Positions 353-47,857 of a stretch of DNA of 64,000 nt are shown here, piece by piece; the first letter of the stretch is position 1, and each line of letters starts with the position of its first letter. The notes below the pieces were generated by a model that ran no database searches, was not told the DNA's origin, and worked only from the letters and a program-made list of their open reading frames with translations. Made by a program: the position numbers and the translations under genes. Source of the DNA: Rhodospirillaceae bacterium (GTDB lineage Bacteria > Pseudomonadota > Alphaproteobacteria > TMED109); assembly GCA_902615805.1 (NCBI GenBank), contig CACMQH010000001.1, forward strand, positions 221,222 to 285,221. Direction: 5' to 3'.

Positions 353-2650
353 TTGAAGTTTGGTATTGGACAATCTGTTAAAAGAAAAGAGGATGATAAG
401 TTTTTAACTGGATCTGGTTGTTATAATGATGATATCAATTTTAAAGATCAAGTTTATATGTATATTGTTAGATCTCCGTATGCTTTTGCTAAAATTTTAA
501 ATATAAATTATGAAAAAGCTAAAAGGTGCAATGGTGTATTGGAAATCTTAAGTAATGACACAATTAAAAATATGAATATAAATCCTATGTATCCAGGTTT
601 TAAGGTAACAAATAAAGATGGCACTCAAATGCTAGATACCTTTAGAAATATTTTAGCTAATCAAATAGTAAGATATGTAGGCGAACCAGTACTAGCTATT
701 ATTGGGCAAACTAATGAAATAGCCGAAGAGGCAGCAGATTTTATTGAAATTGAATATGAAGAAATGCAAAGCACTACTAATATAAATGATGCCATAAGAA
801 ATAAAGCTCCAATTGTTAGAGATGAACTATCAAGTAACATTTGCTTTGATTGGGAGTTAGGAGATATTAAAAAAACTGAAAATGCATTAAAAAATTCAAA
901 ATATATTACCTCAATTGAATTAGTGAATAATAGATTAGTACCAAATCCCATTGAATGCAGAAGCAGCATTGGTCAATATAACCTAGATTCTGATACATAC
1001 AACTTGTATTGTTCTAGTCAAGGAGTACATAGTTTAAAAAAGAAATTATCTAGTATATTAAATATTAAAGAAGATAAATTAAATGTTTTTACACCTGATG
1101 TTGGTGGTGGGTTTGGAATGAAGATTTTTAATTATCCAGAATACGTGCTTACTCTGGCAGCCTCTAAATTAACGAATAGACCAGTAAAGTGGGTAGCAAA
1201 AAGATCCGAGAGTTTTATATCTGATATTCATGGTAGAGATCATATTAGTACTGCAAAGTTAGGGTTTGACAAAAGCTACAATATTACAGCATTGATGGTA
1301 AATACTTATGCAAATATAGGGGCTTATATTTCTGATTTTGGAGTTTTTATTCCTACTTACGCAGGAACAGCTATGCTTACTGGCTGTTATAAGATTTCTA
1401 ATGCATATGCAAATGTAAAAGGTGTTTTTACTAATACTAACCCTGTAGATGCGTATAGAGGAGCTGGAAGGCCTGAAGCAGCTTACTTAATAGAAAGGCT
1501 TATGGATAAGTCAGCCAGAGAACTAAATATTAGTCCTCTAGAAATAAGAAAAATTAATCTTATTGAAGAAAAGGATATGCCTTATAAAACACCATTAGGT
1601 CATACATATGATAGTGGCAATTTTAAAAAAAACCTATCTGACTGTTTAGCACTTTCTGATTATAACTCCTTTGATAGAAGAAAAAGTTTATCATTGAAAA
1701 ATAATAAATATAGGGGCATTGGTATCTCAACTTATATAGAGGCCTGTGGTGGTGGTGGTCCAGAGTATTGTTATTTAAAAATTGGAGGAAATGGCAATGT
1801 TGAAGTCAAAATAGGTACGCAATCTAATGGACAAGGTCATTTAACATCATACTCTCAAATTGTTTCAGAAGTACTAGATATTGATATTAATCAGATCAAT
1901 ATAATTCAAGGTAATAGTATGGAAATACCAAAAGGTTCTGGAACTGGAGGATCAAGGTCAATGCCCGTAGGCGGCAATGCTTTATTTCTTGCCTCAAAAA
2001 AGTTTTTAAAGAATACACAAGAGTTGCTAGCTGAACACTTAAAAACTGATCCCAACAATATTATTTATAAAAAAGGATTATTTAAATTTAACAATAAAAA
2101 TTATTCTTTTTCTGATCTAACTAAATTATTTAACACACTAGAACCCTTAAACATAAATGCAGATTGGACTCCTCAATCTGGAACATATACCTACCCTAAC
2201 GGTACTCATATTTGTGAATTAGAAATAGATAAACTTTCTGGTTTTGTAAAAATTTTAAGCTATTCGGTAATTGATGATTTTGGAAAAGTTATTAATCCAT
2301 TATTGTTAGAAGGTCAAGTTCACGGAGGTATTGCACAAGGTATTGGTCAAGCCTTATTTGAAGAAACAATTTATGATAATAATACAGGACAACTACTAAG
2401 CGGTTCCTTTATGGACTACGCTATTCCAAGGGCTAGTGATATACCATCTATAAGATTTAATTATAATGAAATTCTTTGTACTACTAATCCATTAGGAATT
2501 AAAGGAGCAGGAGAAGCGGGCGCTATAGGAGCACCACCTGCAGTAATTAATGCAGTATGTAATGCTTTAGATATAGATCATATTGATATGCCTGCAAAAC
2601 CTGAAAAAGTGTGGAAGATATTGTCTAATAAAAATCCTAACGGATTATAA
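353..2650 (+). CDS. CoxL-like (form II) molybdopterin-binding hydroxylase large subunit
   Basis: A 765-residue member of the xanthine oxidase / aerobic CO dehydrogenase large-subunit family, which binds the Mo-molybdopterin cytosine dinucleotide cofactor and oxidises small organic or aldehyde-like substrates in the cytosol. The active-site loop around residues 367-373 reads AYRGAGR, the form II signature, not AYxCSFR of true CO dehydrogenase, so CO is unlikely to be the main substrate. The C-terminal catalytic Glu motif GAGEAGAIGAPP is present near residue 720. The start is TTG at 353, chosen because AGGAGA (341-346) lies six bases before it and the family N-terminus (GQSVKRKEDDKFLTGSG) follows at once. 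No medium (FAD) or small (2Fe-2S) subunit gene and no XdhC-like chaperone adjoin it, which is unusual. The exact substrate is unknown. Confidence 0.85.
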   Translation: MKFGIGQSVKRKEDDKFLTGSGCYNDDINFKDQVYMYIVRSPYAFAKILNINYEKAKRCNGVLEILSNDTIKNMNINPMYPGFKVTNKDGTQMLDTFRNILANQIVRYVGEPVLAIIGQTNEIAEEAADFIEIEYEEMQSTTNINDAIRNKAPIVRDELSSNICFDWELGDIKKTENALKNSKYITSIELVNNRLVPNPIECRSSIGQYNLDSDTYNLYCSSQGVHSLKKKLSSILNIKEDKLNVFTPDVGGGFGMKIFNYPEYVLTLAASKLTNRPVKWVAKRSESFISDIHGRDHISTAKLGFDKSYNITALMVNTYANIGAYISDFGVFIPTYAGTAMLTGCYKISNAYANVKGVFTNTNPVDAYRGAGRPEAAYLIERLMDKSARELNISPLEIRKINLIEEKDMPYKTPLGHTYDSGNFKKNLSDCLALSDYNSFDRRKSLSLKNNKYRGIGISTYIEACGGGGPEYCYLKIGGNGNVEVKIGTQSNGQGHLTSYSQIVSEVLDIDINQINIIQGNSMEIPKGSGTGGSRSMPVGGNALFLASKKFLKNTQELLAEHLKTDPNNIIYKKGLFKFNNKNYSFSDLTKLFNTLEPLNINADWTPQSGTYTYPNGTHICELEIDKLSGFVKILSYSVIDDFGKVINPLLLEGQVHGGIAQGIGQALFEETIYDNNTGQLLSGSFMDYAIPRASDIPSIRFNYNEILCTTNPLGIKGAGEAGAIGAPPAVINAVCNALDIDHIDMPAKPEKVWKILSNKNPNGL

Positions 2651-10453: not shown

Positions 10454-11389
10454 ATGTTTATTAGAGTCTTAGGAGCAGCAGCAGGTGGAGGATATCCTCA
10501 GTGGAACTGCAACCATCCAAATAGCAGATTAGCCAGAAATAAAAATTCTAACGCAATTAAAAGAACACAGTCTTCTATAGCAGTTAGCTTAGATAAAAAG
10601 AAGTGGTTCATATTAAATGCTTCTCCTGATTTAAGACAACAGCTCTGGGAAAACCCGGAACTAATGCCTGCAGAAAACGATCCGCTAAGATATAGTCCTA
10701 TAATGGGTGTGTTTCTCACTAATGCTGATGTAGATCATACTGCTGGTCTTATAAATTTAAGAGAATCACAAGCTTTTAATTTATATGCTACAGAAAGAGT
10801 AATCAATGTGCTTAATAGTAATAGTATTTTTAACGTATTAAACCCTAAATTTGTTAACAAAGTTCCGATTAAACTTGATAGTTACTTAGAATTATTAAAT
10901 GCTGATAAAACTGCAAGTGGTATTAAAGTAAAAGCTTTCGCGGTCCCAGGAAAAGTTGCTTTATGGTTAGAAGACGCAAATAAGGGACCTAATTTTGGAT
11001 CTGTTGATGAAGATACAATTGCACTAGAAATTTGTAACGAAGAAACTGGAGCAAGTTTCTTTTATATTCCTGCTTGTGCATATGTACCAGATTGGCTAAA
11101 AGATAAGCTTAACAATACAAATTTGCTATTTTTTGATGGAACTCTTTGGACAGATGATGAAATGATTAAACAAAAAGTTGGAATTAAAACAGGTAAAAGA
11201 ATGGGGCACATTAGTATGTCAGGAGAAGAAGGTTCACTGAATATTTTTAAAGACGTAAAAATAAATAGAAAAATATTTATACACATTAATACTACAAACC
11301 CAGCCTTGTTAAATAATTCATCGGAAAGAAAAGTTTTAGAAAATGCAGGTTGGGAAGTTGCATATGATACTATGGAGATTAAGATATGA
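10454..11389 (+). CDS. pqqB: PQQ biosynthesis protein PqqB
   Basis: A 311-residue metallo-beta-lactamase-fold protein. It starts MFIRVLGAAAGGGYPQWNC, the PqqB hallmark, and contains the DVDHTAGLINLR metal-site block and MGHISMSGEEGS. PqqB is regarded as an iron-dependent hydroxylase that acts on the cross-linked Glu-Tyr intermediate before PqqC. Its stop overlaps the start of pqqC (ATGA-type overlap), which implies translational coupling. No clear ribosome site precedes it; an inverted repeat ends at its start codon. Confidence 0.96.
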   Translation: MFIRVLGAAAGGGYPQWNCNHPNSRLARNKNSNAIKRTQSSIAVSLDKKKWFILNASPDLRQQLWENPELMPAENDPLRYSPIMGVFLTNADVDHTAGLINLRESQAFNLYATERVINVLNSNSIFNVLNPKFVNKVPIKLDSYLELLNADKTASGIKVKAFAVPGKVALWLEDANKGPNFGSVDEDTIALEICNEETGASFFYIPACAYVPDWLKDKLNNTNLLFFDGTLWTDDEMIKQKVGIKTGKRMGHISMSGEEGSLNIFKDVKINRKIFIHINTTNPALLNNSSERKVLENAGWEVAYDTMEIKI

Positions 11390-12183
11390 TAATGCCAGCT
11401 CCATTTTTTCCTGGTCCATCTAAAGAGTATGAAAATGATCAACCTCTTAAGAGACAAGAATTTATTGATGCACTGGTAGAATTAGGGAACCAAAGATACC
11501 ATAGCTTACATCCTTTTCATAAATTGTTACACAATGGAAAGCTAAGTTTTCCACAAATACAAGCCTGGGCCTTGAACCGATTTTATTATCAGTGGTCTAT
11601 TCCAAGAAAAGACCTAACACTAATGGCTAGAATAAATGATGTTAAACTTAGACTAGAATGGCGTTCCAGAGTTATAGATCATGAGGGCGATATAGATGGT
11701 AGTGGAGGTATTGCTAGATATTTACAATTATGTGAAAAACTTAACCTTGATTTAGAATATGTTAAATCATGTAAAGGTTTGCTTCCTGCAACTAGATTTG
11801 CAGTAGATGCCTATGTTAATTTTGTTGAAAACAAATCATTATTAGAAGGAATTGCCTCTTCACTAACAGAAATATATGCACCTGCCATACATCAAGAAAG
11901 GATTACAGGCCTATCTAAACATTATGAGTGGGCAGATGATTATGCTTTAGCGTATTTTAAAAAAAGAATTAATCAAGCCAGAAGAGATGTTGAATTTGGT
12001 AGGGAATGGGTAATTAATAATGCTATTACTAGAAGTGATCAAGAGGCCGTTTTGAATGCTGTAAAATTTAAAACTGAAGTTTTATGGGCACAACTTGATG
12101 CTCTTTATCATTCATATGTTGATCCCGGTAATATACCTCCAGGAGCATTTGTTCCAGAAGGGTTGAGAAAAAATAGTTCATGA
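11386..12183 (+). CDS. pqqC: Pyrroloquinoline-quinone synthase PqqC
   Basis: 265 residues of the heme-oxygenase-like all-helical fold. PqqC catalyses the last step, the cofactorless eight-electron oxidation and ring closure of AHQQ to PQQ. The blocks RYHSLHPFHKLLHNGKL, NRFYYQWSIPRKD, DHEGDIDGSGG and SSLTEIYAPAIHQERI carry the conserved His, Tyr, Arg and Glu residues of the active site. It overlaps pqqB and pqqD by 4 bases at each end. Identification is unambiguous. Confidence 0.97.
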   Translation: MIMPAPFFPGPSKEYENDQPLKRQEFIDALVELGNQRYHSLHPFHKLLHNGKLSFPQIQAWALNRFYYQWSIPRKDLTLMARINDVKLRLEWRSRVIDHEGDIDGSGGIARYLQLCEKLNLDLEYVKSCKGLLPATRFAVDAYVNFVENKSLLEGIASSLTEIYAPAIHQERITGLSKHYEWADDYALAYFKKRINQARRDVEFGREWVINNAITRSDQEAVLNAVKFKTEVLWAQLDALYHSYVDPGNIPPGAFVPEGLRKNSS

Positions 12184-12473
12184 GTAAATTGATACAATTA
12201 AAAATTGAAGATGTTCCTTCATTACCTAGGCACGCAAAACTTAGGTTTGACAATGCAAGAAAAAAATGGATCATTAATGCTCCTGAAAGAGTATTTGAGT
12301 TAGATGATATTGCTGGAGAGGTAATGCAATTAATAAATGGAAAAGATACTCTGAAACAAATTATTGATAAGCTTTTAGTTAAATATGAAGATGCTCCTAA
12401 GGAGCAAGTAACTAATGACGTTGTTACTATGTTACAATCTTTAGCGGATAAAGGATTTTTAACAAATGAATGA
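12180..12473 (+). CDS. pqqD: PQQ biosynthesis peptide chaperone PqqD
   Basis: A 97-residue RiPP recognition element protein that binds PqqA and presents it to the radical SAM enzyme PqqE. It has the family blocks RHAKLRFDNARKKWIINAPE, ELDDIAGEVMQLINGKDTL and DVVTMLQSLADKGFL. It overlaps pqqC by 4 bases and pqqE by 8 bases, so it is made in step with both. Confidence 0.95.
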   Translation: MSKLIQLKIEDVPSLPRHAKLRFDNARKKWIINAPERVFELDDIAGEVMQLINGKDTLKQIIDKLLVKYEDAPKEQVTNDVVTMLQSLADKGFLTNE

Positions 12474-13590
12474 TTTAAATAAAGATATGAGCTTTAGTAC
12501 TCCAGAAAAAAAAAGTAAAACTCTTATACCATATGCAATGCTTTGCGAGTTAACACATAGATGTCCTCTTTCATGTCCTTACTGTTCAAACCCAGTAGAA
12601 TTAGAGTTGAAAAGTAATGAAATTAGTACAGATTTATGGAAAACAGCTTTGTCTGATGGGGCCAAAATAGGTATTTTACAGGCACACTTTTCAGGAGGAG
12701 AACCTACTGCTAGAAAAGATTTAGAAGAATTAGTAAACCATGCTTCTAAAATAGGACTATATACTAACCTAATTACTTCCGGTGTTTTGATTAATGAAGA
12801 TAGGTTAAAAAAGCTTTATGATGCAGGCTTAGATCATGTTCAAGTTTCTATACAAGATACTGATCCTAATAATTCTGAAAAAATTGCTGGTTTTAAAGGA
12901 CATCAAAAAAAAATAGAAACTTGTGGTCTAATTAGAAAAGTTGGATTGCCTTTAACGGTAAATGCTGTAATGCACCGTCAGAACCTTCATAATTTAAAGA
13001 ATATGATTGAACTAGCAGTTGAATTGGATGCTGAAAGACTTGAAGTGGCACAAGTACAATATTATGGGTGGGCCCTTAAGAATCAAACTGCATTCCTGCC
13101 AACAAGAGAACAATTAGATAAAGCAACAATTATAGTTGAAGAAGCAAGAATAAAATATAAAGGTATCTTAGCAATTGATTATGTTGTACCCGACTATTAT
13201 GCCAAAAAGCCTAAATCTTGCATGGGTGGATGGGGTCGTCAATTCTTAAATATTACCCCTGCAGGAAAAGTTTTACCTTGCCACGCTGCTGAATCATTAA
13301 ATTTTTTAAATTTTGATAATTTAAAAGAAAAATCATTAGCATGGATATGGGAGCACTCTGAATCATTTAATAGATTTAGAGGAACTGATTGGATGCCTGA
13401 ACCTTGTCAATCCTGTGATAGAAGAGAAATTGATTGGGGTGGCTGTAGGTGTCAGGCATTTGCCTTAACAGGTAATGCAGATGCTACTGATCCCACTTGT
13501 GAATTTTCTCCATATAGAAATGTATTGGAAGAGCCCCTATCAAAAGCTGGATCTGAAAACCCTGACTTTATTTATAGAAAATATTCTTAA
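12466..13590 (+). CDS. pqqE: PqqA radical SAM cyclase PqqE
   Basis: 374 residues; a radical SAM enzyme that forms the carbon-carbon bond between Glu and Tyr of PqqA. The SAM 4Fe-4S motif is RCPLSCPYCSNP (CxxxCxxC) near residues 33-40, followed by HFSGGEPTARKD. The C-terminal SPASM/auxiliary cluster cysteines lie in SCMGGWGRQF, GKVLPCHAAES, PCQSCDRREIDWGGCRCQAF and DPTCEFSP. It ends pqqABCDE; pqqF/G-type peptidase genes are not next to it, so precursor trimming must use a protease from elsewhere. The LOG-family gene follows after 15 bp. Confidence 0.97.
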   Translation: MNDLNKDMSFSTPEKKSKTLIPYAMLCELTHRCPLSCPYCSNPVELELKSNEISTDLWKTALSDGAKIGILQAHFSGGEPTARKDLEELVNHASKIGLYTNLITSGVLINEDRLKKLYDAGLDHVQVSIQDTDPNNSEKIAGFKGHQKKIETCGLIRKVGLPLTVNAVMHRQNLHNLKNMIELAVELDAERLEVAQVQYYGWALKNQTAFLPTREQLDKATIIVEEARIKYKGILAIDYVVPDYYAKKPKSCMGGWGRQFLNITPAGKVLPCHAAESLNFLNFDNLKEKSLAWIWEHSESFNRFRGTDWMPEPCQSCDRREIDWGGCRCQAFALTGNADATDPTCEFSPYRNVLEEPLSKAGSENPDFIYRKYS

Positions 13591-13605
13591 AGCTTTTTAA
13601 AGATT

Positions 13606-14157
13606 ATGCAAAAAAAAACTCATACGGTTTGTGTTTTTTGTGGAAGTAAGTCTGGAAATAATATTAAATATTTAAAACTAGCAAATACATTAGGAAAAAA
13701 ACTAGCTGAAAGAAATTTTAATGTTATTTATGGAGGAGGTAATTCAGGTCTAATGGGTGCACTTGCAGAAGGAGTGCTAGCAAAAAATGGCTCTTTGATT
13801 TCAGTAATACCTAAGTTTTTTAAAAACAAAATGGATATAATAAAATCTAAAAAAGAAATTGTTACTAAAGACTTATTTGATAGAAAAAGTATTATGATTA
13901 AAGAGTCTGATTTTTTTATAGCATTGCCTGGAGGATTTGGAACTTTAGACGAAGTTTTTGAATTAATATCTTTAAACCAACTAGCCTTAATAGATAAAAA
14001 AATTATAATATTAGATATTAATAATTTTTGGCACTCTTTAAAAAATCTTATAAAAGATTTAAAAAAAAGTGGTTTTTTATATACTAATAAAAATAGTAAT
14101 ATAATTTTTAAAAATTCTATTAGTAAGACTATTGGATTTATTGAAGATAATTTTTAA
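13606..14157 (+). CDS. LOG family protein (TIGR00730 type)
   Basis: 183 residues of the Rossmann-like lysine-decarboxylase-like family now called LOG, whose members hydrolyse nucleoside 5'-monophosphates (cytokinin riboside monophosphates or AMP) to free base and ribose phosphate. The two signature motifs are NVIYGGGNSGLMGALAEG and the active-site LPGGFGTLDEVFE. The N-terminal VCVFCGSKSGNN is also typical. It follows pqqE by 15 bp and precedes icd by 24 bp, but no functional link to PQQ is known to me. Confidence 0.9.
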   Translation: MQKKTHTVCVFCGSKSGNNIKYLKLANTLGKKLAERNFNVIYGGGNSGLMGALAEGVLAKNGSLISVIPKFFKNKMDIIKSKKEIVTKDLFDRKSIMIKESDFFIALPGGFGTLDEVFELISLNQLALIDKKIIILDINNFWHSLKNLIKDLKKSGFLYTNKNSNIIFKNSISKTIGFIEDNF

Positions 14158-38518: not shown

Positions 38519-39925
38519 ATGAGCAATATAGAATTATTTGGGTCGGATAAAGTTAAAAATTTAGTAACAGATACTTTGTATGGTTGTGACGATGGTGAGT
38601 TGTATATTGAAGATAATGTATCCGAAAGTTTTCTTTTTGATGATGGTGTTCTTAAAAATACATCATTCAATGAACATAAAGGGTTTGGTTTGAGAGGAGT
38701 TAAAGAAGAATTAATAGGGTATTCCCATTCAAGTGAATTTTCAATAGATGCTTTAAAAGAAGCATCTAAGACAGTATCGACTGTTAAATCTGGACACAAT
38801 AGTGACAGTATAGTTGATCCTAATAGAACAAATAATAAATTATATACTGATAAAAACCCCTTAAATGTTAAAGACTTTAGCAGTAAAATTAAATTGTTAG
38901 AGGATATTAATAGTTATGCCAGAGATTATGATAATAGGGTGAAGCAAGTTTCTGTAAATCTATCAGGATCATGGCAAAAAGTAGATATTTTAAGACCTTC
39001 AGGACAAGAACTATCAGATATTAGACCACTAGTAAGATTAAACATAAGTGTCACACTAGAAGATAAAGGCAAAAAAGAAACTGGATCTGTAGGTTTTGGT
39101 GGAAGATACTCGTATAGTGATTTTTTTACTGAACAAAATTGGAAAGAAGAAGTTCACAAAGCTGTATTACAAGCAAAAATTATGTTACAGGCTATTCCTG
39201 CACCAGCTGGGGAACAGGTTGTTGTACTTGGTCCTGGGTGGCCTGGAATTTTATTACATGAAGCAATAGGTCATGGATTAGAAGGTGATTTCAATAGAAA
39301 AAAAATTAGTGTATTTACGGAACTAATGAACTCCTCTGTTGCCAGTAAGGAAGTCACTGTTTTTGATGATGGAACTATATCTGACAGAAGAGGTTCTTAT
39401 ACAATAGATGATGAAGGAACGCCTTCACAAAAAACTACATTAATAGAAAATGGAAAATTAGTAAGTTATATGCAGGACAGACAGAATGCTAGGCTTATGA
39501 AAGTTAAAGCTACAGGGAACGGAAGAAGACAATCATATGCACATCAGCCTATGCCTAGAATGAGCAATACAATGATGGCAAATGGCAAACATAACCCTCA
39601 AGAAATTATAAAAAGTACTAAAAAGGGCGTATTTGCAAAAACCTTTGGAGGAGGTCAAGTTGATATAACTAATGGAAAATTTGTATTTTCTGCAAGTGAA
39701 GCTTACCTAATTGAAGATGGTAAAATTACTTCTCCTATTAAGGGGGCAACATTAATAGGGTCAGGCTTTGAAGTCTTAAAAAAAGTTGAATTTGTAGGTA
39801 ACGATTTAGAAATGGACCCTGGGATAGGTACTTGCGGAAAGAATGGGCAAGGAGTTCCTGTTGGTGTAGGACAGCCAACATTAAAAATAAATGGATTAAC
39901 AGTAGGAGGAACTGCTAGCAGTTAA
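38519..39925 (+). CDS. tldD: Metalloprotease TldD
   Basis: 468 residues. TldD, usually with TldE/PmbA, forms a cytosolic heterodimeric protease that degrades unfolded peptides and matures some RiPPs. The zinc motif is in LLHEAIGHGLEGDF (HExxxH). GRRQSYAHQPMPRMSNT, GGGQVDITNGKFVFSASEAYLIEDGKI and GIGTCGKNGQGVPVGVGQP are family blocks. TldD/TldE can process PqqA-like peptides in principle, but no such role is shown. It ends the plus-strand run and converges on the GGDEF gene with a 3 bp gap. Confidence 0.95.
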   Translation: MSNIELFGSDKVKNLVTDTLYGCDDGELYIEDNVSESFLFDDGVLKNTSFNEHKGFGLRGVKEELIGYSHSSEFSIDALKEASKTVSTVKSGHNSDSIVDPNRTNNKLYTDKNPLNVKDFSSKIKLLEDINSYARDYDNRVKQVSVNLSGSWQKVDILRPSGQELSDIRPLVRLNISVTLEDKGKKETGSVGFGGRYSYSDFFTEQNWKEEVHKAVLQAKIMLQAIPAPAGEQVVVLGPGWPGILLHEAIGHGLEGDFNRKKISVFTELMNSSVASKEVTVFDDGTISDRRGSYTIDDEGTPSQKTTLIENGKLVSYMQDRQNARLMKVKATGNGRRQSYAHQPMPRMSNTMMANGKHNPQEIIKSTKKGVFAKTFGGGQVDITNGKFVFSASEAYLIEDGKITSPIKGATLIGSGFEVLKKVEFVGNDLEMDPGIGTCGKNGQGVPVGVGQPTLKINGLTVGGTASS

Positions 39926-39928
39926 CCT

Positions 39929-40666
39929 TTAGCTTGTTATAACTTGATTTCTACCATTCTCTTTGGCTTTATAAAGCCTTTCGTCAGCCTTGTTAAGAAG
40001 TTCTTGGTATACACCTGTTTCAGTAGAACACGCAATGCCCATTGAAACTGTTACACTGATTTGTTTTCCTTCAAACTCAATTTTTTTACTTTCTATATCG
40101 CTTCTTATTTGGTCAGCTAATAAAGCAGCCCGTTGAATATCATTATTGTACAAAATAGTTAAAAACTCCTCCCCTCCAAAACGACCTACAACCCCCTCAG
40201 AGCCAACTTTATCTTGCATATGATTAGAAACTTTTTTAATTACTTCATCTCCCATTGGATGCCCATAGTTATCATTAACTTTTTTGAAAAAATCAATATC
40301 TAACATTATAATATTAAAATTATCATTATTATCTTCTTCTAATTTCTTAATTTCTTCTTTAAGCAATTCAGTAATCTTCCTTCTATTTGCAAGTCCTGTT
40401 AATGTATCAGTTGTAGCTTGCATTTTTAGTTGCTTTGAATATTTTTCTAGTTCTGCTTTAGTAATCGCAAGCTCTGCTTCCATTTTATCACTCATTCTAA
40501 TTAGTCTTTTAGACTGCTTAAAAAGTTTTTTATAATTAACAAGTAAATTTTTGTATTCTGTCTCGAGTTTCTGAACATTATTAATTTCTTCCGAACTTAT
40601 AAACTCATTGGATCGACTAATTATTTTTTCTTCTTCTGCATATAAGGAAAACTCTTTATCGGACAA
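39929..40666 (-). CDS. siaD: Diguanylate cyclase, SiaD type
   Basis: 245 residues. A coiled-coil region (about 25-83) precedes a GGDEF domain with active site RFGGEEF (GGEEF at 164-168) and the metal/GTP blocks DTLTGLANRR and MLDIDFFKKVND. It makes cyclic di-GMP. At the place where the inhibitory RxxD site would stand (about 155-158) the sequence is GSEG, so product feedback at that site appears absent. It follows a SiaC-type gene by 12 bp and ends the seven-gene unit; in Pseudomonas aeruginosa SiaC binds and activates SiaD. The coil likely mediates the oligomer that SiaC stabilises (inference). Confidence 0.85.
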   Translation of the reverse strand: MSDKEFSLYAEEEKIISRSNEFISSEEINNVQKLETEYKNLLVNYKKLFKQSKRLIRMSDKMEAELAITKAELEKYSKQLKMQATTDTLTGLANRRKITELLKEEIKKLEEDNNDNFNIIMLDIDFFKKVNDNYGHPMGDEVIKKVSNHMQDKVGSEGVVGRFGGEEFLTILYNNDIQRAALLADQIRSDIESKKIEFEGKQISVTVSMGIACSTETGVYQELLNKADERLYKAKENGRNQVITS

Positions 40667-40678
40667 AAATACCTCTCA

Positions 40679-41062
40679 CTATTTATTAACTATTTCAAAT
40701 TTTATATTTTCTATATCTTCAGCAAATTCTTCACCTAATTCTCTCATGTTATCATCCTCTTCGTCCACTCTCCAAATAACACTTATACTATGTCCATTAG
40801 ACGTAGCAAACTCTTCAAACATATCAAAAATTCTCATAAGAACTTTTGCTGAACTACTATTAAAATATAATAACTCAAAGGCACATAAAAATTTTTTATT
40901 TTTGTTAGAATTTAAATGATTTTCCATAGCTGATAATACAGGGCCATAAAATTCTGTCACATTTTCAGGATAAGACTCTCCAACTACTTCCATTGTCCCT
41001 TTTTCCCAATCACAAGTAATTTTTGGTGATCTTTCTCCAGCTTCTATATTTATGTTATCCAC
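40679..41062 (-). CDS. siaC: SiaC-type regulatory phosphoprotein (DUF1987)
   Basis: 127 residues of the DUF1987 family. In P. aeruginosa the unphosphorylated form binds the GGDEF protein SiaD and switches it on; SiaB phosphorylates it at a Thr and SiaA reverses this. The segment ELLYFNSSSAKVLMRIFD (about 64-80) corresponds to the family's YFNTSS phosphorylation region, here with Ser (about Ser69) in place of Thr. SPKITCDWEKGTMEVVGESYPEN is the family N-terminal block. It stands between siaB and siaD with 12 bp gaps on each side. Confidence 0.87.
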   Translation of the reverse strand: MDNINIEAGERSPKITCDWEKGTMEVVGESYPENVTEFYGPVLSAMENHLNSNKNKKFLCAFELLYFNSSSAKVLMRIFDMFEEFATSNGHSISVIWRVDEEDDNMRELGEEFAEDIENIKFEIVNK

Positions 41063-41074
41063 TTGCTAACTCCT

Positions 41075-41623
41075 TTATTTAAGAATTGATCTAAGAAGAA
41101 AAAATGATGTGCCATCATTTAAATCTATAAAGTCAAAATCAAATTCAGATGACTTTCTTGCTATTTCAATTAACCCTACCCCAGCTCCCTTAGATCCTTC
41201 TTCTGTATCAGCTCTCAATTTTTGTTTATAATAAGCTTTTAAATCATCTTCAGACATATTCTTCAAACTATTAAGTCTTTCTCTTAATAATTTAACTCTT
41301 TTTGTTGACTTTATTACATTTCCACAATTTAATATGTAAGATTCATTTTTCTTGGAGATAGCCATAATTCCATATCTAACGTCATCTTTTCCTTCATCTT
41401 CTATTTGATCGTCAGAGTATCGCACAACATTTTCATATTGTTCAACAAAAACTGAAAAGATATTTCTCATAACTTTTTTAGGCAAATGATCTTGTTCTAT
41501 TTGTTGTTTAAGTACTGAGGCAATTGATGTTAATAAAGCTTGAGACATATAACCCGAATATGTCATGATCACTTCATTGCCTAACATTAATTTATGCATA
41601 TTAAAAAGTGTTTTTGCATCCAT
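41075..41623 (-). CDS. siaB: SiaB family protein kinase
   Basis: 182 residues of the SiaB kinase family (DUF6272, related to GHKL-type ATPases). Features are the N-terminal MSQALLTSIASVLKQQ, FSVFVEQYENVVRYSDD with the Glu-Asn pair of the ATP-binding helix, and GSKGAGVGLIEIARKS, a glycine-rich ATP lid, near the C-terminus. It would phosphorylate SiaC, preventing activation of the cyclase. It follows the cytochrome gene by 7 bp and precedes siaC by 12 bp. Confidence 0.83.
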   Translation of the reverse strand: MDAKTLFNMHKLMLGNEVIMTYSGYMSQALLTSIASVLKQQIEQDHLPKKVMRNIFSVFVEQYENVVRYSDDQIEDEGKDDVRYGIMAISKKNESYILNCGNVIKSTKRVKLLRERLNSLKNMSEDDLKAYYKQKLRADTEEGSKGAGVGLIEIARKSSEFDFDFIDLNDGTSFFLLRSILK

Positions 41624-41630
41624 AATTATC

Positions 41631-42143
41631 TCATTTTTTAGTTACTGATCTAATATAAGCTATTAGCTTTAAAATTTCATCCTCTTTTAATGAGGAGCCA
41701 TATGCACCCATTTTTGTGCCTGCTATACCATTTGTTATTATATAAGCTAAAGAATAAGTACTACCGTCACTATGCTTAAAAGTTCCTTTATTTAAAGCTG
41801 GCCCTCCTGAACCACTTCCTTTGGGTCCATGACAATGTAAGGCAGCACAACCCTTCAAAACGTAATGCTTTTTTCCTTCTTTTAATGCTTCTTTATTTCC
41901 TTCATACGGATTTTCTATATCTTCAACTGTATTATGAAGATTTTCTTTAGCAGCTATATTTATTATAAACTTACTTCTTACGGCATAATTAGATAACCTT
42001 TCAAACCACAAACCATTTTTAATATCAAGTGAAATGTAACCTTCTTTTATAGAGGCGTTGATACATCCTATCAATATAAAAATAAAGAGTACAGTAAGTG
42101 TTATTAATTTACTATTTTTATAAATTTTATTGTAAATATACAT
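41631..42143 (-). CDS. Lipoprotein cytochrome c with CX4CH heme motif
   Basis: 170 residues. A lipobox FILIGC (Cys27) suggests a lipid-anchored periplasmic protein. The C-terminal 85 residues are a monoheme cytochrome c domain: heme site C99-AALH-C104-H105, that is CX4CH in place of CXXCH, then GPKGSGSGGPALNKG, with Met145 (TKMGAYG) as probable sixth ligand, and the ending EDEILKLIAYIRSV. It lies between siaA (2 bp) and siaB (7 bp), the only non-signalling gene in that stretch, and belongs to the unit that starts with a quinoprotein dehydrogenase. I infer it is that enzyme's electron acceptor. Confidence 0.82.
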   Translation of the reverse strand: MYIYNKIYKNSKLITLTVLFIFILIGCINASIKEGYISLDIKNGLWFERLSNYAVRSKFIINIAAKENLHNTVEDIENPYEGNKEALKEGKKHYVLKGCAALHCHGPKGSGSGGPALNKGTFKHSDGSTYSLAYIITNGIAGTKMGAYGSSLKEDEILKLIAYIRSVTKK

Positions 42144-42145
42144 AA

Positions 42146-44236
42146 TTATCCTAATTTCATTCCAAGTAAGGTAATATCATCTCTTCTTTTATTATCACCT
42201 AAATAATCTTTAAAATTTTTTAAAAAAGCATTCTTTTGCTCAGGCATAGATAATTTACTATTTTTTAGTAATATCTCCATCAACCTTTTATTACCAAACG
42301 ATATTCCCTTACCCCCAATTTGATCACAAATACCATCAGATGCTAGATAAATGAAATCATCTTTATTAAAATTAACATCTATATTTTTATAAGAATAATT
42401 TATAGGCGTAGACGAATAGCCTATTCCACACTTGTCCCCCTTTATCATTTCAAAATTATTTTGTCTTATATACAATAATGGGATTCCTGCTCCCGAAAAT
42501 CTTAACTTGTTTCCTGTCTTTTTAATTTCTAATACTATTGCATCTAATCCATCTTCTGAAACTTCATAACCTTCAGTATTACTTAAAGCTTCTTTAAAAA
42601 AGTTATTTAATTTTTTAAGCAAAAAGCCAGGTGACTCAACTTCATTTTTTATAATATTTTGAAGCGAACTACCTAATATCATAGTTAATAAAGCTCCAGG
42701 TACTCCATGCCCTGCACAATCAAATACACAAACATACATTTTATCTTTGTTTTCAAAAATAGCATAAAAATCACCCCCTACTATGTCTCTTTGATCATGA
42801 TATATAAAATGGTCTTGACAATATTCAGTTAGTTTGTGTTTTTGAGGCAATAAAGCTTTTTGTATTTTACTAGCATAATCAATAGATGATGTTAATAAAT
42901 CATTAACAGCCTTCAATTCCTTGGTCCTTTCTGCAACTTCAATTTCTAAACTGTCTGAATAATTTTGTGCTTCTATTTTAAAACTTTCTACTGCACTTGC
43001 CATTACTCCAATTTCTCCACCCCTAGAAATTTCAGGAACATCAACTTTTTTGTCCCCTTTAGAAAGTTTAAGCATTGCAGAAGTTATATTCTCAATTGGT
43101 TTAATTATTCTTCTGGTAATTATTAAAAATGATATTAAAGCTAAAAATATGGTTAATATTAAAACTATGGAAGCAAAAATTTGTTTTTTTCTACTGTCTA
43201 TATACAAAGTCTGTGATTGAATTTCTATGCTATTATTGACTTTATAAATATCTGCATTTAATTTTAGATTAAATTCATCAACAAGATCTAAATAATTATT
43301 TAAATTATAAGAAAATGATTCCCAAGCTGACGCCTGATTGGTTAATTTGTTCAACAATATAAGATTGTTATTTAAATAGTTATTCTTTTTATTCAAAACT
43401 TGTTCTAAAGAGTAACCAGATGAATTTTTTTCTATAATGTTATTAATACCTGATTTTTTTAATTTTTCTTTTATTCCTCTTAATAATTCTTCATTTAATT
43501 GCTTATAGTTATTTATAATTTGTAACTCTTCGTAAGAAATTGGCATATCAGTGGCAATTAAACCGGAAAACAGAGCCTGCTGTCTCGAACTGAATTCCTT
43601 ATATCTCATTAATAAATATCTTAGACTTTGTAAATCCTCTATAGTTCTTACAAGTCTATCAGGTCTAAAATTAGCACTCTGGGAAAAATTAATAATTGAT
43701 AATGACATATCATTTGAAACTGGTAACCATTCCGATAAAAGAATTTCAGATTTATTACTTTTTTGACTTTTTTTAATTCTTGTATTCTGTTGGTGAATTG
43801 AAACAACTTTCTTTAAGGCTTTTGATACTTTCAGTTTAAAAGATTTATATTTATCATAATCAGATAACAGCTGATTATTGTATTCTTTTGAAACATTAAT
43901 TCCTTCTTTAATTATTAAAGAATACTCTTTATCAATTTCTTTACCCACTGAAGATATTTTATTCCTAATTTTTGCAGGAATATTTTTATCCTTGGTAGTT
44001 AAACTTAAATTGGTAAAAATTAGTATTTTTTCTTCAAGTAATTTATTATACAACTTGAATAAAGAATTTTGAAATATGGCATTATTTTTAGCTAGATCAG
44101 AGTATTTTTTTGTATTGTTAACATCTATCCAAAAGTTTAATGCAAAAGATAAGAGCATAGCAATTAAAAAAAATATTATAACTACTAAACTAACTCTTAC
44201 TGATCTAAATTTGTCTTTAATTCCTCTAAAACTCAT
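42146..44236 (-). CDS. siaA: SiaA-type membrane PP2C phosphatase (sensor)
   Basis: 696 residues. TM1 at about 16-37, a helical periplasmic sensor region to about 350, TM2 (IFASIVLILTIFLALISFLII), a HAMP linker, a short coil and a C-terminal SpoIIE/PP2C phosphatase domain (about 455-695). The metal-binding residues lie in RDIVGGDFYAIF, CVFDCAGHGVPGALLT, LASDGICDQIG and NKRRDDITLLG. In P. aeruginosa SiaA dephosphorylates SiaC in response to an outside signal, raising c-di-GMP. It overlaps the small PstS-like gene by 11 bases and is followed by the cytochrome after 2 bp. Confidence 0.87.
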   Translation of the reverse strand: MSFRGIKDKFRSVRVSLVVIIFFLIAMLLSFALNFWIDVNNTKKYSDLAKNNAIFQNSLFKLYNKLLEEKILIFTNLSLTTKDKNIPAKIRNKISSVGKEIDKEYSLIIKEGINVSKEYNNQLLSDYDKYKSFKLKVSKALKKVVSIHQQNTRIKKSQKSNKSEILLSEWLPVSNDMSLSIINFSQSANFRPDRLVRTIEDLQSLRYLLMRYKEFSSRQQALFSGLIATDMPISYEELQIINNYKQLNEELLRGIKEKLKKSGINNIIEKNSSGYSLEQVLNKKNNYLNNNLILLNKLTNQASAWESFSYNLNNYLDLVDEFNLKLNADIYKVNNSIEIQSQTLYIDSRKKQIFASIVLILTIFLALISFLIITRRIIKPIENITSAMLKLSKGDKKVDVPEISRGGEIGVMASAVESFKIEAQNYSDSLEIEVAERTKELKAVNDLLTSSIDYASKIQKALLPQKHKLTEYCQDHFIYHDQRDIVGGDFYAIFENKDKMYVCVFDCAGHGVPGALLTMILGSSLQNIIKNEVESPGFLLKKLNNFFKEALSNTEGYEVSEDGLDAIVLEIKKTGNKLRFSGAGIPLLYIRQNNFEMIKGDKCGIGYSSTPINYSYKNIDVNFNKDDFIYLASDGICDQIGGKGISFGNKRLMEILLKNSKLSMPEQKNAFLKNFKDYLGDNKRRDDITLLGMKLG

Positions 44237-44699
44237 ATAGAACTCTTATATTTGCTGGAATTTTTTTAACTTCTTCTTTGGAAACTATAGAAATTGCTCC
44301 TATTTCTTTAGCAACTACATTTACTATTTCTCTTGTACTATCTTTAATTTTTTTTTTCATACTAATATCATTAAATTTTTTTTGTAGTTTATCTTCAACA
44401 ATCTTATTATCCTCATTTAAAACATTTTTATAAAAAAAATTAAATGCCTCATCATTTATAGCTTTTATGTAGAAAGTTGCGGGAATTTTACCAGGCCACT
44501 CTTTAGTATTTCCAAAAAAAAGAAATTTTACTTTATTAATTAAATTATCCTTATTAGAATTATAATTATTCTTATAATTAACAATTACCATAAATTTTTT
44601 AGTATCTATTTCTATTTGTTCAGCAAAAGTACTAAGCGAAAAAAAAAGCACTAGAGTAGCTTTAGAAAAAAATAATACATAATTTCTAAAGCTATTCAT
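44226..44699 (-). CDS. Small periplasmic PstS-like (phosphate-binding-protein-like) protein
   Basis: 157 residues with a signal peptide (VLFFSLSTFAEQ). The mature part resembles the short single-lobe PstS-like proteins: FLFFGNTKEWPG (59-70) matches their LGK/W-P block, FYKNVLNED the next helix, and VVAKEIGAISIVS (128-140) their NPGAIGYV block. Lysine-rich and divergent, so the family call is moderate. It lies 5 bp after the dehydrogenase gene and overlaps siaA by 11 bases. I infer that it could be a periplasmic ligand-binding partner of the SiaA sensor region. Confidence 0.6.
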   Translation of the reverse strand: MNSFRNYVLFFSKATLVLFFSLSTFAEQIEIDTKKFMVIVNYKNNYNSNKDNLINKVKFLFFGNTKEWPGKIPATFYIKAINDEAFNFFYKNVLNEDNKIVEDKLQKKFNDISMKKKIKDSTREIVNVVAKEIGAISIVSKEEVKKIPANIRVLYEF

Positions 44700-44704
44700 T
44701 ACAT

Positions 44705-46414
44705 TTAATTCATTAATTTAAATGCTACTAGCAATGCACCTTCATTGATTTGGGAAAACCTAGGATCTATGCTTGGCATAAACATTGCTGGAACCATACC
44801 ACAACAACCTATAGGAAAAAGAATGAATTGCTCTCCCTTTGCTAAATAGGAAATAATACCTGATCTATTTCCTGATCCAACATTAAAATTCCACAACTCT
44901 TTTCCATTTGATAAATCTAGAGCTTTTACATTCCCAAAACTCGTTCCGTAGAAAATCAAATCTCCTGCGGTCGTTAAGACACCTCCAAAGTTTGGGGTTT
45001 CAAATTCCTTTTGCCAGGTAATACTTCCAGTGATAGGATCAGCCGCGACTAATCTAGGTGCTGGTTTATCTTCATGTACAACTGCAGTTGTCATAGCATT
45101 CCAACCAAGCGCACCTGTTTTTCTTTCTATACCTTCAACTACTTCCAAAACATTACAGTAATCTTGTGTCATAGTATACCATAGTCCAGTTTTAGGATTA
45201 AAAGAACCAGGCCCCCATCCTCTAACTCCTCCTATCCATGGACAAATTGTGGTTTCTGTTCCAGGCTTAGGTTCATTTCTTCCAGTTATAGCACCTGTTT
45301 TTGGGTTAACCTCCTTGGCCCAATTTGCAGTTTGAGAAAGTTTCCATACATTATTCAATTTGCCTTCATCTCTATTATAAACATAAACATAACCATTTTT
45401 ATTTAGTGTACTCATCAATCTCTTACCTTCTCGCTCAACGAAAATAAATTCTCCTGATGCATCATAGTCCCAAACATCATGGGGAACTTGTTGATGATAC
45501 CATTTAAGTTCACCTGTTTTTGGAGATAAAGCAACTATACCACTGGTATAAAGATTATCTCCTGGTCTATCATCACCGTCATCAAAATCTGGTGCTGGAT
45601 TTCCTACAGGAAAATATAAAAGATCTAACTCTGGATCATATTGACCTCCCATCCAAGGAAAACCTCCACCGGTTTCTCTATGTTCCGGCAGCCAACTGTC
45701 AGGGTGATCCCTTAAAGTTTCAAACTGCCATACTATCTCTCCACTCTTTGCATCTAGTCCATAAATAGATCCTTTGGCAAATAGCTCTCCTCCAGCTGGA
45801 CCATATACTATCATATTACCAGCAATAACAGGACTAGAGGTAAAGTTACAATTACAAGTTTCAGTTTCTACAACTTTAGTTTGCCAAACTACTTCTCCTG
45901 TTTTTCTATCTAAAGCTACTGCTTGCCCATCTAAAGTACCTATAAAAATATATTCATTTCCAACAGCTAAGCCTCTGCTATAAGGAGAAAACAAAAGAGT
46001 GTTTTCATCAAAGCCTTGATCTACACTTCTATTTTTCAGTTCTGAAAACTCATGAGTGTATTTCCAAAGTTGTTCACCTGAATAGCCATCAACCGCATGT
46101 ACTACATTGTATGAAGCAATATAATAAATCACTCCATCTACCGCAATTGGAGTACTTTGAAGTCCCATCTTTATTTTACCAGGCTGATGCATCCATGCAG
46201 TACCTAAATTTTTTACATTTTTACTAGTAATTTTTTTAAGAGGAGAAAAACTCCAACCTTTATAAGACCCATGATATACAGGCCAGTCTCCCTGTCCTAA
46301 GCCATCATTAGCTACACCAGGCATTGCTATTCTATTTTTAAATTTTTCGTGATCGTCTGCAGCTAATAAATTGAAAAATAAAAAAAAGAATGAACCCAAA
46401 ATTATTTTAATCAT
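44705..46414 (-). CDS. PQQ-dependent alcohol dehydrogenase, predicted lanthanide type
   Basis: 569 residues with a signal peptide (IILGSFFFLFFNLLAADD), a periplasmic eight-bladed propeller with repeated W-motifs (DAKSGEIVWQ, KTGELKWYH), and no C-terminal cytochrome domain. Metal and PQQ residues align with XoxF/PedH: Glu210 (PAGGEL), Asn272 (VGNPAP), catalytic Asp316 and Asp318 in HDVWDYDASG. The second Asp, two after the catalytic one, marks lanthanide-dependent enzymes; calcium types lack it. The vicinal Cys-Cys of methanol dehydrogenases is absent at its usual place (LLFSPYSRGLA); CNC occurs near 187-189. The ribosome site AGGGAG stands before its ATG. It heads the sia-type unit. The substrate alcohol is unknown. 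Confidence 0.88.
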   Translation of the reverse strand: MIKIILGSFFFLFFNLLAADDHEKFKNRIAMPGVANDGLGQGDWPVYHGSYKGWSFSPLKKITSKNVKNLGTAWMHQPGKIKMGLQSTPIAVDGVIYYIASYNVVHAVDGYSGEQLWKYTHEFSELKNRSVDQGFDENTLLFSPYSRGLAVGNEYIFIGTLDGQAVALDRKTGEVVWQTKVVETETCNCNFTSSPVIAGNMIVYGPAGGELFAKGSIYGLDAKSGEIVWQFETLRDHPDSWLPEHRETGGGFPWMGGQYDPELDLLYFPVGNPAPDFDDGDDRPGDNLYTSGIVALSPKTGELKWYHQQVPHDVWDYDASGEFIFVEREGKRLMSTLNKNGYVYVYNRDEGKLNNVWKLSQTANWAKEVNPKTGAITGRNEPKPGTETTICPWIGGVRGWGPGSFNPKTGLWYTMTQDYCNVLEVVEGIERKTGALGWNAMTTAVVHEDKPAPRLVAADPITGSITWQKEFETPNFGGVLTTAGDLIFYGTSFGNVKALDLSNGKELWNFNVGSGNRSGIISYLAKGEQFILFPIGCCGMVPAMFMPSIDPRFSQINEGALLVAFKLMN

Positions 46415-46534
46415 TATAATACTCCCTAAATATTATTGTATATATATAAAATAGCAGTTTATTTTTTTTTTTAAAGTGTAGAGCTTTTAGTAAATAATAA
46501 TTTATTAAATAAAATTTTATTCTATACTTAGAAA

Positions 46535-46858
46535 ATGAGCGTTACTAGAAAACATGCAAGACATAAATTACCTGTTCAGCTATTTTATGACAATCAGCAC
46601 TTAAAACTTATAGACTTCAGTTTAGGTGGAGCTGGTGCAGAATTAGGTAATATTCTGCCACCCGATTCGGGTAGCACTTTAAAGTTAGTTTTAATTTTTC
46701 CCTATAATGGAGAGAATGTAGGATGGGAGATTTCTGCTAAAGTTGTCAGAGTAGATCCAAAAAATAATTTCATAGCATTCGAATTTATAGAAGATGAATC
46801 TTTTAAAAAATTTTCTTTGGCTTTTTATGAAGAAATGAGAAAAAAAGGAATAATATAA
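46535..46858 (+). CDS. PilZ domain protein (c-di-GMP receptor)
   Basis: 107 residues, nearly all PilZ domain. The two c-di-GMP-binding motifs are RKHAR (R5-x3-R9) and DFSLGGAG (DxSxxG), in the correct order and spacing. No other domain is attached, so it is a stand-alone adaptor whose partner is unknown. It is divergent from the quinoprotein-sia unit across 120 bp and is followed after 3 bp by the EAL gene. Confidence 0.9.
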   Translation: MSVTRKHARHKLPVQLFYDNQHLKLIDFSLGGAGAELGNILPPDSGSTLKLVLIFPYNGENVGWEISAKVVRVDPKNNFIAFEFIEDESFKKFSLAFYEEMRKKGII

Positions 46859-46861
46859 ATT

Positions 46862-47857
46862 ATGAATTTCACTGAAATAAAAAAAATCTTATCAAACTCA
46901 GATATTGCATTTTTTGAAGTAGACAAAAATAATTATATAAAATGGAAAAATCACTCTTTCATAAAATTATTTAATTTTATAGAAAGTAAAGAATTAAATG
47001 GTCATTTAACTTTTCAACATAAATCACAAAGTAATTTTCTAATTTTAAAATTTATTAAAAAAAATATTTCTTATAAGGTTGATTTATTAGTTAAAAGAAA
47101 AAATAATAGTATTTATAAAATTAATGACAGCCAAATTAGTAAATTAAAAGTCTTACAAGATGGGATGAATTGCTTTAAAAAAGGCGAAATTAAATTTGCA
47201 ATACAAAAACAATATGATTTAAATAAATCTAAAATATCTGGATATGAATTCTTAGCTAGAATGTATTTACAGAATAGTACTTTAATATCTAATGAAGACT
47301 TTATGCCAATGATAGACAGCACTTATCAGTTAAAAATCTTGATACCAATAGCACTAAGTAAAATAGCTAATTTAAAAAAACATTTAGAAAATAAAATATA
47401 TTGGATTAATGTTTCTGCTGAAAATTTAGAACAAAAATCTTTTTATAAAATATTTTTTAATTTAGTAAAAAAAAATAATTTAGAAAACAAAAACATTGGA
47501 ATAGAAATCACTGAAAGTAATAAAATAAAATCTAATAAAAATATTTTAGATACATTATTAAAACTTAAGGCTAATAAATTCTCAATAGCAATGGACGATT
47601 TTGGTGCAGGATATGCAAATATTAAAAGACTATCAATCTTCCCTGTGGATATAGTAAAGTTAGATAAGTTATTTGTTTCTGACATTAAAAATAAAAAAAC
47701 CCAATTATTAGTAAAAGGAATAGCAGAAATAGGAAATAAAATTGGCTTTTCACTGCTTGCAGAAGGAATTGAAACTAATGACGACTTAATGGTAATTAAA
47801 AGAATGGGAGTAAAGTTTGGACAAGGTTATTTTTTAGGTAAGCCTGAAATTATGTAA
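46862..47857 (+). CDS. EAL-domain c-di-GMP phosphodiesterase
   Basis: 331 residues. The N-terminal 90 residues look like a divergent PAS-type sensor fold (inference); the rest is an EAL domain. The signature is YEFLAR (EFL for EAL, Glu129 kept). Other catalytic residues remain: NVSAEN, GIEITES, AMDDFGAGYAN (Asp-Asp), VKLDKLF (Lys), LLAEGIET and the final GQGYFLGKPE. It should therefore hydrolyse c-di-GMP. It pairs with the PilZ gene and opposes the SiaD-type cyclase encoded across the shared intergenic region. It converges on gshA with a 4 bp gap. Confidence 0.9.
   Translation: MNFTEIKKILSNSDIAFFEVDKNNYIKWKNHSFIKLFNFIESKELNGHLTFQHKSQSNFLILKFIKKNISYKVDLLVKRKNNSIYKINDSQISKLKVLQDGMNCFKKGEIKFAIQKQYDLNKSKISGYEFLARMYLQNSTLISNEDFMPMIDSTYQLKILIPIALSKIANLKKHLENKIYWINVSAENLEQKSFYKIFFNLVKKNNLENKNIGIEITESNKIKSNKNILDTLLKLKANKFSIAMDDFGAGYANIKRLSIFPVDIVKLDKLFVSDIKNKKTQLLVKGIAEIGNKIGFSLLAEGIETNDDLMVIKRMGVKFGQGYFLGKPEIM

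Follow-up and report, generated by a model that had tools for sequence, protein, structure and literature searches.

A removable nine-gene block that may couple periplasmic quinoprotein oxidation to a SiaABCD-type cyclic di-GMP switch

Little is known of what SiaABC systems sense. In the SiaABCD switch of Pseudomonas aeruginosa, SiaA and SiaB set the state of SiaC, which, when unphosphorylated, activates the cyclic di-GMP (c-di-GMP) synthase SiaD through the SiaD stalk (PMC8457831, PMC7647112). Here, we describe a variant of this switch at positions 39929-47857 of a 64,000-nucleotide stretch (the window) from a Rhodospirillaceae bacterium, an alphaproteobacterium with a small genome (contig CACMQH010000001.1, positions 221,222 to 285,221; genome G000, 75.5% complete). 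Like the P. aeruginosa system, the locus encodes a PP2C-HAMP phosphatase SiaA, SiaB, SiaC and SiaD in the same order, with the phosphosite and a docking motif. By contrast, a cytochrome c gene lies between siaA and siaB, genes for a pyrroloquinoline quinone (PQQ)-dependent dehydrogenase and a small protein precede siaA, PilZ and EAL genes are added, and SiaD shows one docking motif instead of two. The dehydrogenase shares with PedH/XoxF-type enzymes the beta-propeller quinoprotein fold, the metal and PQQ ligands, an extra Asp and a nearby cytochrome c gene, but differs from them by having no vicinal disulfide and by a CxC pair ahead of the ligand Glu. In its logic, the locus also recalls the TorT-TorS-TorC/TorA system of Escherichia coli, which likewise brings together an oxidoreductase, a cytochrome c, a periplasmic binding protein and a helical membrane sensor, and in which the TorC apocytochrome inhibits TorS (PMC8534201). 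Whereas Tor acts through a histidine kinase and a transcription factor, the block would produce c-di-GMP by means of a phosphatase and a partner switch, and no significant homology to TorS was found in the SiaA sensor. We propose, with a probability of about one half, that the nine genes form a self-contained accessory cassette that couples a periplasmic PQQ oxidation system to c-di-GMP. The features are as follows (window coordinates, strand, description).

39926..39929, no strand: left junction of the block with a TldD-type gene (empty site in the congeners G002, G004 and G005)
39929..40666, minus: SiaD-type diguanylate cyclase, 245 amino acids
40679..41062, minus: SiaC phosphoprotein, 127 amino acids
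41075..41623, minus: SiaB-family protein kinase, 182 amino acids
41631..42143, minus: single-domain cytochrome c with a CX4CH haem motif
42146..44236, minus: SiaA-type sensor phosphatase, 696 amino acids
44226..44699, minus: small periplasmic PstS-like protein, 157 amino acids, with an 11-bp overlap with the siaA start
44705..46414, minus: PQQ-dependent (quinoprotein) alcohol-type dehydrogenase, 569 amino acids, with a signal peptide
46415..46534, no strand: divergent intergenic region of 120 bp between the dehydrogenase and PilZ genes, presumed site of both promoters
46535..46858, plus: single-domain PilZ protein, predicted c-di-GMP receptor
46862..47857, plus: EAL c-di-GMP phosphodiesterase, 331 amino acids
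47858..47862, no strand: right junction of the block with a glutamate-cysteine ligase gene

All nine open reading frames were confirmed at these coordinates: seven on the minus strand, in the order dehydrogenase, small PstS-like protein, SiaA, cytochrome c, SiaB, SiaC and SiaD, and the divergent PilZ-EAL pair on the plus strand. The spacings along the seven minus-strand genes are 5, -11 (overlap), 2, 7, 12 and 12 bp, and siaA, siaB, siaC and siaD are contiguous within one operon-like unit but for the interposed cytochrome gene. Pfam and NCBIfam support every gene name in the block except that of the small protein. The flanks are of housekeeping type, a TldD-like gene (read from the sequence) ending at 39925 and the glutamate-cysteine ligase gene ending at 47862. 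An earlier note on this DNA had read the minus-strand genes as an operon-level unit; with gaps of at most 12 bp or an overlap, and a gene order kept in a second species, this reading is supported.

This second species is the nearest relative, AG-430-C17 (G001, a single-cell genome labelled 'Rhodospirillaceae bacterium'), in which the identical nine genes are present in identical order between identical neighbours. The linkage, for which the earlier note had asked conservation, is thus not peculiar to one genome. The block occurs in two of the six species of the genus examined. It is missing as a whole from G002, G004 and G005, where the TldD-to-ligase gap measures only 52, 52 and 11 bp, respectively, and the TldD gene is 97%, 94% and 81% identical to that of the window; a search for this flanking gene did not find it in G003. 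Because exactly nine genes come and go together, PilZ and EAL belong with the operon, as the earlier note had supposed, and the nine genes are one removable unit. The order shared with a second species and the all-or-none presence in congeners therefore make the arrangement more than chance. In G002 and G004, the spacer opens, directly after the TldD stop codon, with a stretch resembling the 3' end of siaD. In G004, 18 of 22 bases match the siaD end (0/1000 shuffles as good) and the siaD frame reads NYRNQII against NGRNQVI (4/2000 shuffles as good); the G002 scar is weaker, with 17 of 22 bases (1/1000 shuffles) and a peptide equalled in 108/2000 shuffles. Since these scars resemble the SiaD C-terminus, the block was probably present in the ancestor and then deleted in the congeners. 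Between G000 and AG-430-C17, protein identity is 90% for SiaB, 77% for SiaC, about 73% for the dehydrogenase and 52% for SiaA; flanking genes are 58-79% identical. As this divergence of the block is flank-like and its G+C content (28.7%) equals that of the flanks, it would have resided in the genus about as long as they have, and a recent horizontal arrival is disfavoured on the same grounds.

SiaA, which matches NF038263 in its C-terminal half only, consists of a predicted all-helical periplasmic region between two transmembrane segments, followed by a HAMP domain and a PP2C/SpoIIE domain that aligns to the solved structure 6k4e and keeps its conserved motifs. SiaB, the most conserved protein of the block, scores above the NF038262 (subfamily) cut-off. 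SiaC matches PF09345 with 135 bits, and its Asn68-Ser69-Ser70 fits the N-S/T-S phosphosite motif, Ser69 aligning with P. aeruginosa Thr68; 74 of the 84 loci surveyed have Ser at this site. SiaD combines an N-terminal docking motif (YKKLFKQSKRLIRMSD) with a GGEEF domain. The motif, of the form KKLFxxxKRLxRxSD and present here in one copy, is common to the outputs at other SiaC loci and, by analogy with published work (PMC8457831), is inferred to bind SiaC. Together, the phosphosite and the conserved docking motif support a predicted SiaC-SiaD coupling. A classical RxxD inhibitory I-site, considered for SiaD, was dropped as it was not seen on inspection. All four proteins fall short of the NCBIfam equivalog cut-offs (SiaA 229/700, SiaB 89/225, SiaC 105/150 and SiaD 178/290 bits). 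The switch is thus predicted to work like SiaABCD yet is not the equivalog, appearing rather as a variant with added parts.

Among these added parts, the dehydrogenase scores 249 bits against PF01011 and 390 bits against TIGR03075, under the 480 cut-off of the latter, and its closest solved relative is PedH (6zcv). The alignment to 6zcv keeps the Glu (GGE), the Asn (GNPAP), the catalytic Asp and the lanthanide-type extra Asp (WDYD). The vicinal Cys-Cys of MxaF, XoxF and PedH is absent, CCDVINRG of PedH aligning to FSPYSRG, and AG-430-C17 likewise has none. The enzyme had been described as lanthanide-type in the earlier note: the extra Asp and the ligand positions stand, whereas the vicinal Cys pair is missing. 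The nearest dehydrogenases from other genera of the family are 44-46% identical, and SiaC was not found in the genomes that carry them. Where the block has other partners, these quinoprotein dehydrogenases have downstream genes for a cupredoxin, a family-3 binding protein and one more exported protein; the group is conserved at L043:6580-10260 and its equivalents in L042-L048, with a small exported protein as its fourth member. The cytochrome of the block matches PF13442/PF00034, shows weak similarity to MoxG/cytochrome cL and is probably the electron acceptor of the dehydrogenase. Its haem motif, CAALHCH, is CX4CH and not CXXCH in both species; a CX3CH haem motif occurs at L053:3713-4075, adjoining another PQQ dehydrogenase. 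A pqq biosynthesis cluster lies in the window at 10454-14157, with PqqE at 12466-13590, and PqqE is also present in congeners without the block.

Neither Pfam nor NCBIfam has a match for the small protein, and its match to the PstS1 profile is weak (E 0.39). Its AG-430-C17 orthologue matches an Agarilytica plasmid protein (E 1e-8), which in turn matches small Pseudoalteromonas proteins annotated 'phosphate ABC transporter substrate-binding' (E 1e-5), so that the label PstS-like, proposed from the sequence in the earlier note, holds by transitivity. Porin-like and chemoreceptor genes lie near its relatives in the three neighbourhoods inspected (3/3), consistent with a putative receptor-accessory role. 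In marine gammaproteobacterial replicons, PstS-like genes stand beside porin-like and methyl-accepting chemotaxis protein genes (L166:5155-8426, L170:2010-5339 and L171:3786-7033), and these groups perhaps form a porin-receptor sensing unit. The small protein evolves fast (37-38% identity to AG-430-C17), and the SiaA sensor part is only 42% identical between the two species. Low identity in these two parts (37% and 42%), next to the conservation of SiaB (90%) and SiaC (77%), is as expected of a changing input and a constant output. TorS-TorT complexes are among the best yet non-significant fold matches of the SiaA sensor (3o1h, probability 0.92, E 0.17, on a model with a predicted local distance difference test score, pLDDT, of 56), and an NCBIfam TorS match on SiaA overlaps the second transmembrane segment and HAMP.

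In the proposed cassette, the dehydrogenase would oxidize an alcohol or aldehyde substrate with PQQ, and the cytochrome c would take up the electrons. Substrate or redox state would be signalled to the periplasmic helical region of SiaA by either the PstS-like protein or the cytochrome. Once activated, SiaA would dephosphorylate SiaC at Ser69, opposing the kinase SiaB. Unphosphorylated SiaC would then dock on the N-terminal motif of SiaD, and c-di-GMP would be made, bound by PilZ and degraded by EAL as an off-switch. Sequence, or the published biochemistry of homologues, supports the predicted chain from SiaA through SiaB and SiaC to SiaD as well as the competence of EAL, in which the catalytic residues were read by eye, and of PilZ, in which the RxxxR and DxSxxG motifs were found likewise. 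That the oxidation system is the SiaA input is inferred from gene order, from the variable sensor set against a conserved switch and from a second enzyme-linked module in the genus, and a target under PilZ control is likewise presumed.

The c-di-GMP gene content of the genus gives this circuit its setting. In G000, SiaD is the only GGDEF protein found and the block EAL the only EAL protein found; neither domain was found in G002, G004 or G005. Among 28 family genomes, GGDEF is limited to three species of this genus and is not found in the other 25. It occurs in none of the 10 family genomes of at least 90% completeness, and incomplete genomes leave room for more. A genome-wide PilZ search missed the window's own PilZ, and its zero counts were not used. 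The lineage carrying the cassette is thus otherwise almost without c-di-GMP synthesis genes. Both G001 and G003 carry another cyclase, of 508 amino acids, with weak dCache_3 and HAMP matches and a GGDEF domain. The G003 copy converges on an orthologous PilZ-EAL pair and adjoins a molybdopterin dehydrogenase of the twin-arginine translocation type with an iron-sulphur subunit; the G001 copy comes after a molybdopterin dehydrogenase and a CXXCH (cytochrome c-like) protein, beside the pqq cluster.

L140:735-5328 and L141:7685-13687: second c-di-GMP module of the genus

The two distinct c-di-GMP modules of the genus therefore both adjoin exported oxidoreductases, an association seen in few genomes and not predicted beforehand. 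The second module's molybdopterin dehydrogenases have a weakly similar open reading frame at window positions 353-2650.

Outside the genus, SiaC was searched in overlapping sets of 97 relatives, 385 Alphaproteobacteria and 399 Pseudomonadota, and 83 SiaC loci were scanned by tblastn (E 1e-3) with flanks of at most about 9 kb on either side, shorter where a contig ended. SiaC was detected at all 83, SiaB at 80 and the SiaA catalytic domain at 64, whereas relatives of the dehydrogenase, the cytochrome, the small protein, PilZ and the SiaA sensor were detected at none (0/83); the AG-430-C17 locus alone adds one match to each count. No dehydrogenase lies near SiaC on two Methylobacterium plasmids, and a search of viral contigs returned nothing useful. 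Substrate-binding protein genes recur beside siaA at other loci (L050, L068, L085 and Azospirillum AZO_p3), so that this element of the block has precedent. These loci of other Pseudomonadota resemble the block in having a periplasmic binding protein gene near siaA-siaB-siaC, but carry neither a PQQ dehydrogenase nor a related cytochrome, and several have an output other than SiaD. The arrangement, which was not known to the earlier note, is therefore unmatched as a combination among the 83 loci, while the pairing of SiaA with a binding protein is seen elsewhere.

Evidence for the coupling of oxidation to c-di-GMP includes the tight order, kept in both species with dehydrogenases about 73% identical, the absence of the whole block from three congeners with its siaD-like scars, the scarcity of other c-di-GMP enzymes, the conserved docking motif and phosphosite, the divergence of the signal-facing parts, the genes found near relatives of the small protein, and the second module, which also stands beside an oxidoreductase. 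Several points weigh against it. The arrangement is confined so far to one genus. The structural models are too weak for a contact test, the small protein reaching a pLDDT of 34 in its AlphaFold model and the SiaA sensor, all-helical at low confidence, one of 56. In P. aeruginosa, SiaA is tied to membrane perturbation and carbon availability, with no operon-encoded oxidase (PMC12834913, PMC7647112), and ethanol raises c-di-GMP via WspA/WspR without being oxidized (PMC4207824).

Because of this WspA/WspR route (PMC4207824) and of the link between SiaA and membrane perturbation (PMC12834913), co-regulation without sensing is a serious rival, possible if on the unlikely side. SiaA would then answer membrane state or a ligand of the small protein, and the oxidase pair would merely share the niche, for example attached life on an alcohol-rich particle. 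Indeed, when temperature perturbs the membrane of P. aeruginosa, SiaA responds (PMC12834913), and binding proteins accompany SiaA elsewhere without an oxidase; a ligand of its own could therefore come with the small protein. On the other hand, the cytochrome gene sits inside the signalling genes, between siaA and siaB, in both species, and the genus's second c-di-GMP module also adjoins a periplasmic oxidoreductase. It is more doubtful that the coupling runs in the opposite direction, the c-di-GMP made by SiaD controlling the expression, export or respiratory use of the dehydrogenase system through PilZ, with the oxidase as the target. A single 120-bp region separates the dehydrogenase gene from the divergent PilZ and EAL genes, which are lost together with the dehydrogenase, and no other c-di-GMP target was identified; yet the PilZ-EAL pair of G003 has no PQQ dehydrogenase and stands beside a different enzyme, and a single-domain PilZ has no DNA-binding part. 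Finally, a chance neighbourhood, in which a SiaABCD operon and a dehydrogenase-cytochrome pair unrelated to it came to lie at one hotspot and were co-inherited without functional link, agrees with a junction that varies within the genus and with the 0/83 count, but is improbable given interleaved genes, overlaps and 2-12 bp gaps, and the same order kept among proteins 37-90% identical, all in an AT-rich genome of small size.

Returning to the coupling of oxidation to c-di-GMP, we tentatively extend it to a modular design: a removable full circuit would take its input from quinoprotein oxidation via the cytochrome or a PstS-like receptor, and a sister cassette would use a molybdo-dehydrogenase instead. 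The nine adjacent genes in one removable block suggest that oxidation drives a lifestyle signal in these cells, whereas most of their relatives have no such signal at all. With an oxidase, a cytochrome and a candidate receptor in one cassette with the sensor, the locus names testable SiaA inputs. Because the block seems to hold its host's only c-di-GMP enzymes, it is a rare example of a minimal, whole circuit comprising synthesis, breakdown and reception, and close species with and without it are natural pairs for comparing the role of c-di-GMP in small-genome bacteria.

Beyond SiaD itself, an N-terminal docking-like motif of the SiaD type also starts longer, differing proteins encoded beside SiaC (L079, L084, L086, L087, L105 and others), and these sequences suggest that SiaABC may drive several kinds of output.

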